Origin: an uncultured Pelagibacteraceae bacterium | Lineage (GTDB): Bacteria > Pseudomonadota > Alphaproteobacteria > Pelagibacterales > Pelagibacteraceae | Direction: 5' to 3' | Assembly: GCA_902594395.1 (NCBI GenBank) | Contig: CACJLZ010000002.1 | Coordinates: 17,197-81,196, forward strand | Length of the DNA: 64,000 nucleotides | In this document: positions 1-60,876 of the stretch, one piece after another | Numbering within the stretch: the stretch's first letter is position 1 | Layout: the number at the start of each line of letters is the position of its first letter | Position numbers and translations under genes: made by a program | Notes under the pieces: model-generated | What the model saw: only the letters and a program-made list of their open reading frames with translations | The model's database searches: none | What the model was told of the DNA's origin: nothing

Positions 1-87
1 CTTTAATCTTTTTTTAGTAAAAATTTTTAAAACATCTTTTCTTAACCGTCCCTTACTTGGTATTCCTATATTTATAAAATTTTTCAT
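1..87 (-). CDS. hisG: ATP phosphoribosyltransferase catalytic subunit HisG, N-terminal fragment (runs off window)
   Basis: Reverse strand from ATG at 87 reads MKNFINIGIPSKGRLRKDVLKIFTKK..., a typical HisG N-terminus; ATGA overlap with the hisZ stop. Confidence 0.8.
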   Translation of the reverse strand, partial: MKNFINIGIPSKGRLRKDVLKIFTKKRLK

Positions 88-1142
88 GATTGATAATTTA
101 AGTTAAAAGCTGCTCCAACTGCCGGTATTTGTTTTTTTGAACCAAGATCAGAAATTAATTTGTCATAACGACCACCGTTACAACAATTAATAATTTTCGA
201 CTTTAATTTGATGTCTATTTTAAAAACTATGCCAGTGTAATACTCCAATTGTCTACCAAAGGCTGATGAGAAAACTACATTCAACTTAGATATTTTGTTT
301 TTTGAGACAGGAAAATATTTCTGATCAACAAAAAGGTTTATTTTATGTTTTTTAAAGAATTTATTTAATTCCTTTGCAGCTTTATTTATTGGGCATTTAA
401 TTTTTAGAAACTCTTTAATGATTTTTGATGTTTTACTTCCTTTACTTGCTCTTCTTGGATCCTTAATCTTTTTATCAAACCTTTCTAAAATTTCTTTTAA
501 TGTTCTACCTGCAACAATTGATGATAGATTACCCTTTAACATTTTTAAATATCGTCTTTTATCAACTTCAACAATAGTTGGATCTACATCAGAATTTGTC
601 TCTAATCTTTTTAATAAATCACTGAAATATTCCTCTCGCCAAAAATGTCTTGTAAGTCTTAATTTCCATCTTTTTGGTATATCTAATTTAGATATTAAAA
701 GATTAAAAATCTCTACATTACCAACAGTTAAAGTGCCAGTTGAGTATTTCAAATTTTTTAGTGATTTAAGTGATGTATTTATTATTTCTTTGTCATCATT
801 TTTTTCATCTTTCGATCCTATAATCTCAAAACCAACTTGATTTCGTATTATAGAGTCCTTTTTATTTTGAGATTTTCTATAAGCCTGTCCGCTATAAAAT
901 ATTTTTTCTTTGCCCTTTAAATTGTTTTCTAAATATCTGAGACAAGAAGCAATGGTAAGGTCAGGTCTTAAACATAATTCATTACCTGTCTGATCTGTAA
1001 ATGAAAAAATAAATTTTCTAAAACTTTCACCAGATCTTTGAACTATATGATTAGTCTCAATAACTGATGGCAATTCAATATATTTAAATCCTTTAGACTG
1101 AACTGATCTAAGGATCTTGTTAGATAAATTTTTTGATTTCAT
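84..1142 (-). CDS. hisZ: ATP phosphoribosyltransferase regulatory subunit (HisRS-like, HisZ)
   Basis: 352 aa HisRS-like paralog (class II aaRS motifs, LRPDLTIASCLRYL, NGGRYDKL) lying between hisS and hisG. Confidence 0.85.
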   Translation of the reverse strand: MKSKNLSNKILRSVQSKGFKYIELPSVIETNHIVQRSGESFRKFIFSFTDQTGNELCLRPDLTIASCLRYLENNLKGKEKIFYSGQAYRKSQNKKDSIIRNQVGFEIIGSKDEKNDDKEIINTSLKSLKNLKYSTGTLTVGNVEIFNLLISKLDIPKRWKLRLTRHFWREEYFSDLLKRLETNSDVDPTIVEVDKRRYLKMLKGNLSSIVAGRTLKEILERFDKKIKDPRRASKGSKTSKIIKEFLKIKCPINKAAKELNKFFKKHKINLFVDQKYFPVSKNKISKLNVVFSSAFGRQLEYYTGIVFKIDIKLKSKIINCCNGGRYDKLISDLGSKKQIPAVGAAFNLNYQS

Positions 1143-2517
1143 TTATTAAATTTTCTTTTGGAAATGTGATTTGGTTATTCGCCCCTTTAGCCCCAAGTAG
1201 ATTTTTTAATGTTATTTTATTATCTTTAAATTCATTTTCACCGCAGATAACTGCAACTGGACATTCTCGTTTGTTAGCATAAGTAAGTTGCTTACCTAGA
1301 TTTTTTTTACTATCCAAAAATATTTCAGAATTGATATTATTTTTTCTTAAATTATCTAAAATTTCGTAATAATTTTTTAAATATTTTTCATCCATTACAC
1401 AAACAATAACTGGATTTTGTGTATCAACTTCTATTTGATTTAATTGCATCATTGCGAATAGCAATCTATCAACACCAATACTCACACCTGTTCCTGGAAT
1501 ATCTACACCCTTAAATCTTGAAATTAATTTATTATATTGTCCGCCTGAGCAAATACTTCCAATATCAACTTCGTTACCCTTAATATTTTTTACTTTAAAA
1601 TTTAGATTGGTTTCAACACAAAACCCATCATAATAATCTAGACCTCTAACTATGGTAAAATTAGTTTTTACTTGATCAGAATAATTTCCAAAGTTTAAAA
1701 CTTCAAATAATTCCTCTAGTTCTTTAATGCCCTCTTGGGTAACAGGATTTTTAAAATTTTCTTTAAGTTCCTTTAAATCTTTAATCCTTAAAAAATTTAA
1801 GATTTTTGAAGCTTGCTCATTACTTAAGTTTGCTCCTTTTGTTATAGCTCCACTTTTATCTTTTCTTTCTTTTTTTAATAATTCTTCGACACCCTTTAGA
1901 CCAAAACCTGGTTTATCGAGTTTATCTATAGCTCTCATTACTTTGATTTGTTTATCTTTTTCAATTTTCAAATCCTCAATCAGACCTTGAATGATTTTTC
2001 TGTTACTGACATTAACAGTAAACTGATCTTTTTTTAAACCACAATCTATTAAAGTATTTGAGATCAAATTACACAATTCAGTATTGGCTTGAGCTGGATT
2101 AACGTTTCCAACTATATCACAATCTGCTTGGGTAAATTCCCTATACCTAGCATTTCCAGATTTTTCATTTCTAAATACATTTTGAATTGCATATCTTTTA
2201 TATATTGAAGGAAGCTCTTGATTATTTTGTGCAACAAATCTAGCAAGTGGACTTGATAAGTCATATCTTAAAGTAATATTTTTTTCTCCATCATCAAATG
2301 TAAACACATCAGACATAGGATTATTCTCGTCCTCTGCAAGAAAGGAGCCTATATTTTCACTAATTTCAAATGATGGTGTTTCCAATGGATCAAATCCATA
2401 TTTAATAAAATTTTTCTCAATAACCCCATATAGTCTTTTTTTGAGAATTAATTTTTTATTCCATCTATCTTCAAAACCTGAGGGTAGTCCAGGAATTAAT
2501 TTATTTTCTTTATTCAT
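1120..2517 (-). CDS. hisS: Histidyl-tRNA synthetase
   Basis: Class II HisRS (LRYDLSSPLARFVAQN, RGLDYYDGFCVE, CSGGQYNKLISRF). Start placed at MNKENKLIPGLPSGFEDRW; the 16 upstream codons in the ORF track read through a tRNA. Confidence 0.95.
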   Translation of the reverse strand: MNKENKLIPGLPSGFEDRWNKKLILKKRLYGVIEKNFIKYGFDPLETPSFEISENIGSFLAEDENNPMSDVFTFDDGEKNITLRYDLSSPLARFVAQNNQELPSIYKRYAIQNVFRNEKSGNARYREFTQADCDIVGNVNPAQANTELCNLISNTLIDCGLKKDQFTVNVSNRKIIQGLIEDLKIEKDKQIKVMRAIDKLDKPGFGLKGVEELLKKERKDKSGAITKGANLSNEQASKILNFLRIKDLKELKENFKNPVTQEGIKELEELFEVLNFGNYSDQVKTNFTIVRGLDYYDGFCVETNLNFKVKNIKGNEVDIGSICSGGQYNKLISRFKGVDIPGTGVSIGVDRLLFAMMQLNQIEVDTQNPVIVCVMDEKYLKNYYEILDNLRKNNINSEIFLDSKKNLGKQLTYANKRECPVAVICGENEFKDNKITLKNLLGAKGANNQITFPKENLINEIKKFI

Positions 2518-2521
2518 TTTT

Positions 2522-2595
2522 TGGTACCTTGAGTAGGTTACGCTCCTACGACTTCGGATCCACAAACCGACGTGATACTATTTCACCATCAAGGC
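2522..2595 (-). tRNA. tRNA-His (anticodon GTG), non-canonical D- and T-loops
   Basis: Reverse strand folds as GCCTTGA TG GTGA-AATAGTA-TCAC G TCGGT-TTGTGGA-TCCGA AGTC GTAGG-AGCGTAA-CCTAC TCAAGGT A CCA; anticodon GTG, U72/A73, no G-1 encoded, CCA encoded. Confidence 0.85.
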
Positions 2596-2664
2596 ATATC
2601 CTTTTTTGTTTTATCTTATTTTGTTGTTATTTAAAATTATAATATAAATGATAATTCGCTAGCT

Positions 2665-2766
2665 TTAGCCAGCATGGAAATGAGCGTGCACACCTCTATT
2701 AGTTCCTCTAAGAGCAAGTCTTTGAGTACCTGAGTTTATTCTGTAATTGATCTCATTTTTATTCAT
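2665..2766 (-). CDS. Candidate 33-aa leader peptide MNKNEINYRINSGTQRLALRGTNRGVHAHFHAG (not in ORF track)
   Basis: Open frame just upstream of tRNA-His/hisS; three His codons in its last seven codons; promoter-like TTGAAT-N16-TAATAA ends 7 nt before the ATG. Confidence 0.5.
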   Translation of the reverse strand: MNKNEINYRINSGTQRLALRGTNRGVHAHFHAG

Positions 2767-2773
2767 AAGGAGC

Positions 2774-2801
2774 TTATTAGACAAAAATTTAAATTATTCA
2801 A
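2774..2801 (-). promoter_or_regulatory. Candidate sigma70-type promoter for the leader ORF / tRNA-His / hisS-hisZ-hisG unit
   Basis: Reverse strand TTGAAT (2796-2801), 16-nt spacer, TAATAA (2774-2779), placed after the cspA terminator. Confidence 0.4.
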
Positions 2802-3074: not shown

Positions 3075-3149
3075 CTTTTTACTCGTCCTTTTGTTATTTA
3101 TTTAAGATAGAAGTTAATTTCTTTGTATATTAATTTCAAGATGTTTTGG

Positions 3150-3224
3150 TGGTGCCTCGGGAAGGATTCGCACCTCCGACACAAGCCTTTTCAGGGCTCT
3201 GCTCTACTCCTGAGCTACCGAGGC
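3150..3224 (-). tRNA. tRNA-Phe (anticodon GAA), with A18 and G55
   Basis: Reverse strand GCCTCGG TA GCTC-AGGAGTA-GAGC A GAGCC-CTGAAAA-GGCTT GTGTC GGAGG-TGCGAAT-CCTTC CCGAGGC A CCA. Confidence 0.92.
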
Positions 3225-3230
3225 AAAAAG

Positions 3231-3446
3231 TTAACCTCTAAAGATAATTCTGCCTTTAGTAAGGTCATAAGGTGTCATTTCTACAGTCACATTATCACCT
3301 TGTAATACTCGAATTCTGTTTTTTCTTAACTTACCTGCAGTATGTGCTGTCACTACGTGACCATTTTCCAATTGAACTCTAAACATAGCATTAGGTAACA
3401 GGTCAGTTACTTTACCCTTAAATTCAAGTAAATCTTGTTTTGACAA
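3231..3446 (-). CDS. infA: Translation initiation factor IF-1
   Basis: [67 protein letters not shown]. Confidence 0.97.
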
Positions 3447-3448
3447 AT

Positions 3449-4732
3449 TTATTTTCTCCTAATTCGTTTTTTCACAGATTTAGCGTGTGCAGCCAACCCT
3501 TCATAATTTGCAAGAGTTATAACTGATGGTCCAAGCTTTTCAATACCCTTTTTTGATAAGTTTATGTATGAAATTCTTTTATAAAATTCATTGACACTTG
3601 TACCGCTTGAAAATTTAGCAGAACCATTAGTTGGTAATATATGGTTTGAACCAGCATTATAATCGGTCATTGCCATCACGGCATATTTTCCTAAACAAAC
3701 AGAACCAGCATTTTTAATTCTTGAAATAAAAGATTTGTAATTTTTTACATTTAATTCTAAATGCTCAGGGGCAATTTTGTTTACAATATCAATTATTTGT
3801 TTATCTGATTTTACTTGAATTAAAATTCCATTATTTAATAAACTTTTCCTTGCAATAGCTGTTCTTGGAATTTTTTTTAATTGTTTATAAATTTCACCCT
3901 TAGTTTTAATTATTAAGTCTTTACTTTTAGAAATTAAAATACATTGAGCAAGTTCATCATGTTCTGCTTGACCAATAAGATCGCTTGCTATCCAGTCTGG
4001 TTTTGAAAATCTATCACCAACAACAGTTACTTCTGATGGTCCAGCTATCATTCCCTCAACACCAACATCTCCAAAAACCTCCTTTTTAGCGGCAGCCACA
4101 TACTTATTGCCGGGACCGACAATCTTGTTCACTCTATTAATTTTTTTTGTTCCATAAGCAACTGCTGCAATCGCTGATGGACCACCAATAGAATATATTT
4201 CTTTAATTTTACATTTTTGAGCCGCATATAGTACTGCAGGATTTTGTTTTCCTTTATATCCTGGATTAATCATAATTATTCTTTTTACTCCAGCAACTAT
4301 TGCTGGGATAGCATTCATTAAAACACTTGAAGGATAAGACGCTGATGATCCTGGCACATAAATTGCAACAGACTCGATTGGTAGATATTTGTACTCTAGT
4401 TTATTTTTTAATTTATCTGTGTAAGAAATATTTTCAAATTTTTGTAATGAGTGAAACTTGTAAATTCTTGAATAAGCAAGATCGATAGCATTTTTTACTT
4501 TGAGGTCTAGGGAATTAATAGATTTTTTAATTTGACTAAAACTAGGTTTGATTACTCTGTTCTGATTAAATTTTTTCTCATACTTTAACAATGCTTTATC
4601 ACCATTTTTTTTTACATCATTAATTATTTTTATAACAGAAACAGAACTAGTTTTTAGTTTTGTTTTTCTTCTTAATAATAAATCATCTAACTGTTTATTA
4701 AAATTTCTAGATTTACTTTTTAATATTTTCAT
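3449..4732 (-). CDS. hisD: Histidinol dehydrogenase
   Basis: [52 protein letters not shown] motifs. Confidence 0.97.
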
Positions 4733-59086: not shown

Positions 59087-60787
59087 TTAATAAAGTTTTT
59101 CTAAATCATCTTTATATTTTTTCAAAATTTTTTTTCTTTTTAGTTTTAATGTTGGCGTTAACATTCCATTTTCAATTGTAAATTCTTCTTTAATTAATTT
59201 AAATTTTTTAACTTTTTCAACTGAAGATAAAGTTTTATTTAAGTTTTCTAAATAAATTTCAATATTTTTTCTATTTTCTTCACTTTCAGATACAATTAAA
59301 GCAACTAAATAAGTTTTTTTATCTCCGTAAACAAAACTTTGTTTAATTTTTTCATTTAAACATAATAAATTTTCAATTTTAGATGGTGAAATGTTATCTC
59401 CTCCAAGACTAACTATTATTTCTTTTTTTCTATCAGTAATTTTTAAATTTCCATCCTGTGTAATCACCCCAATATCACCAGTATGCAACCAGCCATTCTT
59501 TATGACATCAGCTGTCTCTTTTTCCATGTTCCAATAACCAAGCATTACATTTTCACCTTTGACTAAAATTTCACCATCCTCAGCTATATCTACTTGGTTT
59601 GTTTTAAAAGGAGGACCAACTGTCTCGATTTTGATTTTTCCTGGAATATTACAACTTACCACAGGTGAGGCTTCGGTAAGACCGTAGCCTTGAAGGGTGG
59701 GCAATCCTATAGCATTTAAAAATTCTCCAATTTTTTGGTCCAAAGCGCCACCCCCAGATACAAAGGCTTTCAGTTTTCCACCAAATTGATTTTTAATCTT
59801 TTTTCTTACCAGTTTTTCGCAAAGAAAATTAATTAATTTTTCTTTCAATGTTAAATTCTCACTATTCAGTTTTTTTGTTCCGATTGAGATAGTGGATGAT
59901 ATTAGTTTTTTCTTAAAACCTTTTTGCTTTGAAAAATTCATTGAAATTTTACTGTACAAATTTTGATAAAATCTTGGCACTGCTGTCATAATAGTAGGTT
60001 TTGCAATAGACATGTTGGATAATAACTTCTCTAGACTTTCAGCATAATAAATTTTTGCACCAAGCGAGATTTGAACAAATTGAACTGCATGCTCATATGA
60101 ATGAGACAAAGGTAACCATGTTAAAAAAGTAGGTTCACTATTTTGAACTAATTGATTTAATATTTCTTGAGCTCCTTCACAATTTGATAGAATTCCTCCA
60201 TGACTGAGCATTACTCCTTTAGGATTGCCAGTTGTTCCAGATGTATAAATTATACAAGCAAGGTCTTTCCTTTCAAGGTTTTGATTAAAAATTAAATCAG
60301 TACCTGATTTCTTTTTTTTAGAATATTCATTAAATATATTTTCTATATTCTCGACTCTTTCATTTATGTTTTCAATAGATAAAATTTTTATTTCATCCGA
60401 GATAAATTTTTTTATTTTGTTTAATTGGGTTTCATTGGAGACGATACAAATTTTTGGGTTACAATCATTAATGATATATTCATAATCTTTTTCTGAATAA
60501 GTTGTAAATAAAGGTACCGTAACCCCACCTGCATTCATAATTGATATGTCAGAGATAAGCCACTCAGGTCGATTTTCAGATAATAGGATGCATCGGTCTC
60601 CGTCAGCTAAATTTGCTTTTAAGTATTCAGATAAAATTTGGATTTTTGTAGAAACTTGCTCCCAAGTCAAAAAATCTTTTTTGTTTTCTTTTAACCATTT
60701 TAAAAATGGCTTATCAGTAACTGAGTTTATTTCTTTATACTTTGTAAAAAAAAGTTCTACTAAACTATTTATTCTACTTAATTGCAT
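59087..60787 (-). CDS. Long-chain acyl-CoA synthetase (AMP-binding)
   Basis: IIYTSGTTGNPKGVMLSHGGI, GYGLTEASPVVS, GWLHTGDIGVITQDGNLKITDRKKEIIV. Confidence 0.93.
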   Translation of the reverse strand: MQLSRINSLVELFFTKYKEINSVTDKPFLKWLKENKKDFLTWEQVSTKIQILSEYLKANLADGDRCILLSENRPEWLISDISIMNAGGVTVPLFTTYSEKDYEYIINDCNPKICIVSNETQLNKIKKFISDEIKILSIENINERVENIENIFNEYSKKKKSGTDLIFNQNLERKDLACIIYTSGTTGNPKGVMLSHGGILSNCEGAQEILNQLVQNSEPTFLTWLPLSHSYEHAVQFVQISLGAKIYYAESLEKLLSNMSIAKPTIMTAVPRFYQNLYSKISMNFSKQKGFKKKLISSTISIGTKKLNSENLTLKEKLINFLCEKLVRKKIKNQFGGKLKAFVSGGGALDQKIGEFLNAIGLPTLQGYGLTEASPVVSCNIPGKIKIETVGPPFKTNQVDIAEDGEILVKGENVMLGYWNMEKETADVIKNGWLHTGDIGVITQDGNLKITDRKKEIIVSLGGDNISPSKIENLLCLNEKIKQSFVYGDKKTYLVALIVSESEENRKNIEIYLENLNKTLSSVEKVKKFKLIKEEFTIENGMLTPTLKLKRKKILKKYKDDLEKLY

Positions 60788-60791
60788 AATT

Positions 60792-60876
60792 TGGTGGGCG
60801 AAGAGAGAATCGAACTCTCACTTCTTGCGAAACACGATTTTGAGTCGTGCGCGTCTACCAGTTCCGCCATTCGCCC
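60792..60876 (-). tRNA. tRNA-Leu (anticodon CAA)
   Basis: 85 nt with long variable arm, loop CTCAAAA, T-loop TTCGATT, encoded ACCA. Confidence 0.95.

Follow-up and report, generated by a model that had tools for sequence, protein, structure and literature searches.

In the his operon leaders of gammaproteobacteria (Rfam His_leader), an open reading frame (ORF) with His codons is followed by a hairpin. In mitochondria, tRNAs punctuate the transcripts, and mRNAs are released when the tRNAs are excised. In Bacillus, His leaders have been described in front of hisZ and of a paralogue of hisS (PMC2965389). The RNA of the trpL attenuator of Sinorhizobium meliloti (rnTrpL/peTrpL) has the ATG of its leader ORF as its 5' end (PMC7298713). 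For the SAR11 bacteria, a tRNA-His/HisRS pair of the RRCH type has been reported in seven of eight strains (PMC3937112); the sections of that paper considered here, which concern identity and phylogeny, describe neither a junction between tRNA-His and hisS, nor a leader, nor a HisRS free of histidine.

The locus analysed here lies at one end of a 64,000-nt stretch of SAR11 DNA, called the window. We propose, with a probability of roughly 0.6, that a His-leader attenuator stands before an operon tRNA-His–hisS–hisZ–hisG, in which tRNA-His is the first structural gene, and that the leader is most probably a sensor of histidine in the form of charged tRNA-His. As in the leaders of the Bacillus hisS paralogue and hisZ, and likewise in those of the gammaproteobacterial his operons, the histidine genes are preceded by a short ORF, in which His codons are clustered, and then by a hairpin. 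The SAR11 locus is unlike both in that leader and hisS are separated by a tRNA-His gene, in that the leader ORF is predicted to be leaderless, and in that the hairpin is weak and, in the clade of the window, poor in U, with neither an antiterminator nor an Rfam match found. It resembles S. meliloti trpL in being alphaproteobacterial and in the predicted start of the RNA at the ATG, while trpL differs by sensing Trp, by controlling trpE(G), by having a proper terminator and antiterminator, and by lacking a tRNA or synthetase gene. The window's tRNA-His, with A73, no templated G-1 and a matching HisRS, is like the RRCH-type pair as reported in the sections cited above. Finally, the coding sequence starts a few nucleotides after the 3' end of the tRNA, as in tRNA punctuation, unlike which the SAR11 locus is a bacterial operon with promoters of its own, where cleavage is putative. 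In the open-access literature that was searched, neither the leader nor the tRNA-His–hisS junction was found described. The features, all on the minus strand, are as follows.

2796-2801 (-): TTGAAT, -35-like element of the predicted leader promoter P1
2779-2774 (-): TAATAA, -10-like element of P1, predicted
2665-2766 (-): predicted histidine leader peptide of 33 aa, MNKNEINYRINSGTQRLALRGTNRGVHAHFHAG and stop, predicted leaderless, from sequence and conservation
2674-2688 (-): His codons CAC GCT CAT TTC CAT, predicted stall site, from sequence and codon columns
2657-2674 (-): hairpin TGCTGGC-TAAA-GCTAGCG, directly 3' of the last His codon, its loop containing the stop codon of the leader, from a scan for terminator-like structures
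2610-2615 (-): GATAAA, -10-like element of a possible second promoter P2, 14 nt upstream of tRNA-His
2522-2595 (-): tRNA-His(GTG), Rfam RF00005, 50.6 bits, with encoded CCA, G1-U72, A73 and no G-1
2518-2521 (-): AAAA spacer between the encoded CCA and the hisS ATG
1120-2517 (-): hisS, histidyl-tRNA synthetase, 465 aa, no His (TIGR00442, 345.9 bits, cut-off 286.75)
84-1142 (-): hisZ, ATP phosphoribosyltransferase regulatory subunit (NF008953, 395.1 bits, cut-off 384), overlapping hisS
1-87 (-): putative hisG, first part of an ORF of 228 aa that runs over the edge of the window, overlapping hisZ, named by its N-terminal sequence and position

The Proposed Operon and Its Histidine-Free Synthetase

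Downstream of the leader are thus genes for the charging and synthesis of histidine: tRNA-His, hisS, hisZ and hisG. The putative hisG ORF is found at 3098-3784 of locus L233, which corresponds to 16597-17283 of contig C2 in genome G000. The order hisS-hisZ-hisG is found in the Pelagibacteraceae and also in a sister family of the same order, where hisZ and hisG-like ORFs were looked at in one genome.

HisRS contains no histidine in 107 of 108 proteins of the family, and the 108 proteins hold a single His in total. The one sister-family HisRS that was checked has none either, and 28 other alphaproteobacterial HisRS have between 0 and 15 (mean 0.94%). At the average His frequency of the window, 1.6%, the chance of finding none in 465 residues is about 0.0006 for one protein, the relatives not being independent of each other. 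That His is almost wholly missing from HisRS proteins with as little as about 46% identity is a sign of selection. That a cognate amino acid is used sparingly in its own pathway is a known idea; the literature search found no paper on low His usage in HisRS.

The Junction between tRNA-His and hisS

Reading along the minus strand, G1 of the tRNA is at 2595, A73 at 2525, CCA at 2524-2522, the AAAA spacer at 2521-2518 and the ATG of hisS at 2517-2515. This is the geometry on which the original prediction was built, and it is confirmed by the sequence and by Infernal, which finds the tRNA. When the spacing is compared across relatives, the junction turns out to be conserved through the Pelagibacteraceae: over 118 family loci, of which one was badly parsed, the distance from CCA to hisS is 4 nt in 88, 5 nt in 18, 6-7 nt in 5 and 23-29 nt in 6. 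A spacing so uniform is, on this count, no chance result. Since a gap of 4 nt leaves no room for a promoter of hisS, the two genes very probably share a transcript. Outside the family, 28 other alphaproteobacterial loci gave no ARAGORN call of a tRNA-His close to hisS, and the sister-family genome G153 has its tRNA-His some 1.4 kb upstream of hisS, a gene standing between the two.

Some variants may be recorded here. The inserts of 23-29 nt, found in six relatives (L170, L171, L226, L227, L229 and L232), are mostly hairpin-like. The tRNA-His upstream of hisS in L230 is seemingly without an encoded CCA (GTGTAC, then GCCCAAAATG). Elsewhere in the window, at 59087-60876 on the minus strand, an ORF of 566 aa begins 4 nt after tRNA-Leu(CAA), with the same geometry as tRNA-His and hisS.

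The tRNA-His genes at the family junctions are of clearly different alleles, with 28 distinct sequences that include two doubtful parses. Placed on the HisRS tree, the allele types imply no fewer than 19 changes, the minimum being 6; many forks of the tree are weak, but its starred branches alone force several changes of allele. From this follows that the tRNA gene has been exchanged repeatedly, with the architecture tRNA-His–hisS retained throughout.

How much of this could be plain streamlining? Under such an explanation the two genes would share a transcript, the spacer would have no regulatory meaning, hisS would lack a Shine-Dalgarno (SD) sequence as its neighbours do, and a leader ORF might still exist. 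In the same genome, four other tRNAs are likewise followed by an ORF at most 6 nt after the CCA (Gln 3 nt, Glu 3, Leu-CAA 4, Pro 6), 46 of 49 window genes are without an SD-like tetramer, and the spacer itself is A-rich, 4-7 nt long and replaced by an insert of 23-29 nt in six loci. Streamlining leaves unexplained, however, that the pair was kept through at least 19 allele changes, and it is silent on the leader and on the His-free HisRS. We consider it unlikely as a full account, although it is the best of the rivals.

The Probable Histidine Leader and Its Hairpin

The attenuator reading draws on what lies upstream. A small ORF precedes tRNA-His in 118 family loci, including clades with differing tRNA-His alleles; it is situated 150-250 nt upstream of hisS and varies in length from 19 to 38 codons. 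In the window it ends in GVHAHFHAG. Among the 67 distinct leaders of 33 codons, the last His (codon -3) is invariant, being CAT in 53 and CAC in 14, and 64 of 67 have His at -5 and 64 of 67 at -7, where both His codons are likewise in use, while the N-terminus drifts. Over 115 distinct leaders the His content is 10.3%, so that the ORF is His-rich.

In 99 of 118 loci the leader ATG is preceded by a TTG at a distance of exactly 35 nt, and in 114 the distance is 34-36 nt; by chance, 5.6% of all ATGs have such a TTG. This distance puts the ATG at the expected start of transcription, and the leader is therefore predicted to be leaderless. A second box, [TG]ATAA[AT], is shared by 116 of 118 loci upstream of tRNA-His; its distance from G1 is 10-18 nt in 114 of them and 39 nt in two. 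Such a conserved -10-like element, placed between the hairpin and tRNA-His, could free the tRNA from control by the leader. In L170, a hairpin-like insert, GGGAATGTGGTTAAGAATATTTCCC, is located between the promoter-like box and tRNA-His.

Next to a His codon, 117 of 118 loci have a fully paired stem of 6 bp or more, compared with 3.6% of shuffles. In the consensus fold the hairpin covaries, with compensatory changes, for example from GCTGGC/GCTAGC to GCAAGC/GCTTGC, and in many clades the leader stop codon sits in the loop.

Several properties speak against an attenuator. The 10 nt after the hairpin contain 2-8 T, and 3 in the close relatives of the window, in whose clade AATTATCATT makes a poor U-tract; the hairpins are modest, with a median of -8.9 kcal/mol; the fold of the full window leader is no better than that of shuffles (z -0.60); and the P2-like box might bypass the hairpin altogether. 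The consensus fold of 33 leaders contains the terminal hairpin and no antiterminator, a result that would still be compatible with other designs, in which the stalled ribosome itself blocks the stem. The Rfam His_leader covariance model matches neither the window nor the sister-family loci, and no Rfam family matches the leader region. In some clades, moreover, the stop of the leader ORF comes only after the hairpin, at odds with the model in its simple form.

Independent support for a His leader before hisS comes, as we read it, from the sister family. Here an ORF of 11 codons precedes hisS, such as MFKFKHHHYHI or MIVYTHHHIHI, in this case without a linked tRNA, and it is followed by hairpin-forming sequence and, in many loci, by CCCCTTTTT. 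In L216-L224, where such His leaders lie some 100-130 nt before the match to hisS, the next elements are a hairpin and a CCCC-T tract that is conserved.

The same data bear on the suggestion that the small ORF is an independent gene, for instance for a metal-binding protein in view of its histidines, with no relation to the control of hisS. Its own promoter-like sequence and hairpin, and the second promoter-like box before tRNA-His, would suit a separate gene. Its N-terminus is nevertheless poorly conserved where the His codons beside the hairpin are kept, its length ranges over 19-38 codons, the peptide has no match in Pfam, and the sister family has the 11-codon HHHYHI leader before hisS, which together make this suggestion improbable.

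Shine-Dalgarno Sequences and tRNA Processing

The original prediction had placed control at the junction itself: folding of tRNA-His would hide an SD sequence in its acceptor stem, or 3' processing would free the start of hisS, so that the state of the tRNA would set the synthesis of HisRS. The AAGG in question does sit in the 3' acceptor strand, at 2530-2527, and the geometry is real and conserved. Masking is, however, not borne out by the relatives, since AAGG is present in only 4 of 26 distinct tRNA-His sequences, and in 15 of these 26 no SD-like tetramer occurs within 20 nt of the hisS ATG. Within the allele group of the window, the acceptor stem may read GCATTAG/CTAATGT or GCTTTGG/CCAAAGT, such that pairing is kept and AAGG is gone. 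Furthermore, when ORFs of at least 120 aa are considered and the first ATG is taken as the start (some starts possibly being wrong), an SD-like tetramer at -20 to -4 is found in 3 of 49 window ORFs, compared with 265 of 2073 ATGs overall (12.8%), and with a stricter SD test in none of the window ORFs. An SD-less hisS thus seems ordinary in the window, and with 3 of 49 genes carrying such a tetramer there is no sign that hisS needs one. Given that AAGG is not conserved and that the window genes lack SD sequences, masking by the acceptor stem is rejected as unsupported.

Processing fares somewhat differently. With a leader of 4 nt, it must affect the 5' end of hisS, and it is plausible that a cut behind the CCA would give a hisS mRNA with almost no leader. 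All seven genomes tested have RNase E/G, and six have an RNase Z-like protein, with a score below the family cut-off; as these proteins are present, 3' processing of tRNA-His is possible. Nothing was found in support of folding or processing of the tRNA as the control point, and in six loci a hairpin-like insert takes the place of the short spacer. Control at the junction is accordingly quite improbable, and the upstream His leader is the better supported candidate.

The tRNA-His Gene

The match of the element before hisS to the Rfam tRNA model is 50.6 bits, where the gathering score is 29 (Infernal). It has a cloverleaf with acceptor arms GCCTTGA/TCAAGGT, a His anticodon in the loop TTGTGGA, and the alphaproteobacterial His identity bases. 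Its D-loop, AATAGTA, is without G18G19, and its T-loop is AGCGTAA rather than TTCRANN, so that the conventional D-loop GG and T-loop TTCRA are both missing. ARAGORN made no call for the window tRNA-His and missed all alleles with the T-loops AGCGTAA (51 loci) or GGCAGAA (2 loci), because the D- and T-loops are unusual.

In 26 distinct homologues, pairing in the acceptor stem is intact in 181 of 182 cells, with compensatory changes in many, and such changes also accompany the preserved anticodon and T stems. G1-U72 and A73 are the same in all of them, in line with the alphaproteobacterial type of HisRS that the cited sections of PMC3937112 report for SAR11. As the window's own genome is 55% complete, copy number was taken from relatives. 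In a set of 143 family genomes with a completeness of 90% or more, from which the window's genome was excluded, the window allele or a near relative of it occurs once per genome where present; matches to a canonical tRNA-His pattern in the allele-bearing genomes were, by look and among the matches listed, tRNA-Leu variable arms or chance. Genome G020 is a complete relative with the same allele (one contig, 99% complete), and all its full-length tRNA matches were read: 31 ARAGORN-called tRNAs cover the 19 other amino acids and none is for His, which leaves the element before hisS as the one other full-length match. Because it carries the only His anticodon of G020, has covarying stems and keeps the identity bases, the element is evidently a real tRNA-His with an odd elbow. 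A weak partial tRNA match of 33 bits, without an ARAGORN call, lies at 838387-838444 of contig C1 in G020.

In E. coli, ThrRS represses its own thrS mRNA through a tRNA mimic. A corresponding mimic, bound by HisRS and not working as a tRNA, would agree with the unusual D- and T-loops and the failure of ARAGORN, but it is rejected as extremely improbable, given that the element is the only tRNA-His of G020, that G1-U72 and A73 are invariant and that other clades have an ordinary tRNA-His at the same place; a double role, as tRNA and operator, would be compatible with these data.

Two other candidates were tried on the origin and variability of the gene. Descent of the window allele from a remodelled tRNA-Val(GAC), which has the same T-loop, is unsupported, since the identity of 53% is no better than with other tRNAs. 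Nor is tRNA-His unusually variable: its mean pairwise identity of 0.795 is only modestly below the 0.875 of tRNA-Phe at the same loci, a comparison set that may hold misassignments. Odd T-loops are found in several tRNAs of the window's genome (at 2522-2595 of the window and in L002, L018 and L009): AGCGTAA in tRNA-His and tRNA-Val(GAC), GTCAGTA in tRNA-Thr(GGT) and TGCGAAT in tRNA-Phe.

Discussion

To see how the attenuator would work, consider first a cell in which His-tRNA is sufficient. The ribosome would then complete the leader ORF, the hairpin would form, and transcription from P1 would end or drop. When His-tRNA is scarce, the ribosome would instead stall on the His codons and cover the 5' arm of the hairpin; with the stem thereby kept open, RNA polymerase from P1 could read into tRNA-His, hisS, hisZ and hisG. 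Basal expression may be supplied by P2, just before tRNA-His. The 4-nt junction would, in this scheme, be a product of operon compaction, and the near-leaderless hisS message left after excision of the tRNA would be usable because genes here do without SD sequences. A HisRS without histidine can, further, be made while histidine is short.

These elements may be joined into a wider picture, which we put forward tentatively, at somewhat less than even odds. A single SAR11 transcript would carry a self-contained circuit for histidine supply, with a leaderless sensor ORF, the only tRNA-His, a near-leaderless message for a His-free HisRS, hisZ and hisG. A shortage of charged tRNA-His would raise the tRNA, its synthetase and the biosynthesis together, and the synthetase would be made without consuming histidine.

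On the practical side, annotation with ARAGORN would show some SAR11 genomes as being without tRNA-His. SAR11 bacteria, thought to possess few regulators, rank among the ocean's most abundant cells. A conserved leader sensor, if true, would be a rare case in which one leader possibly controls both a tRNA and the enzyme that charges it, and the His-free HisRS suggests lasting selection for making this enzyme when histidine is scarce.
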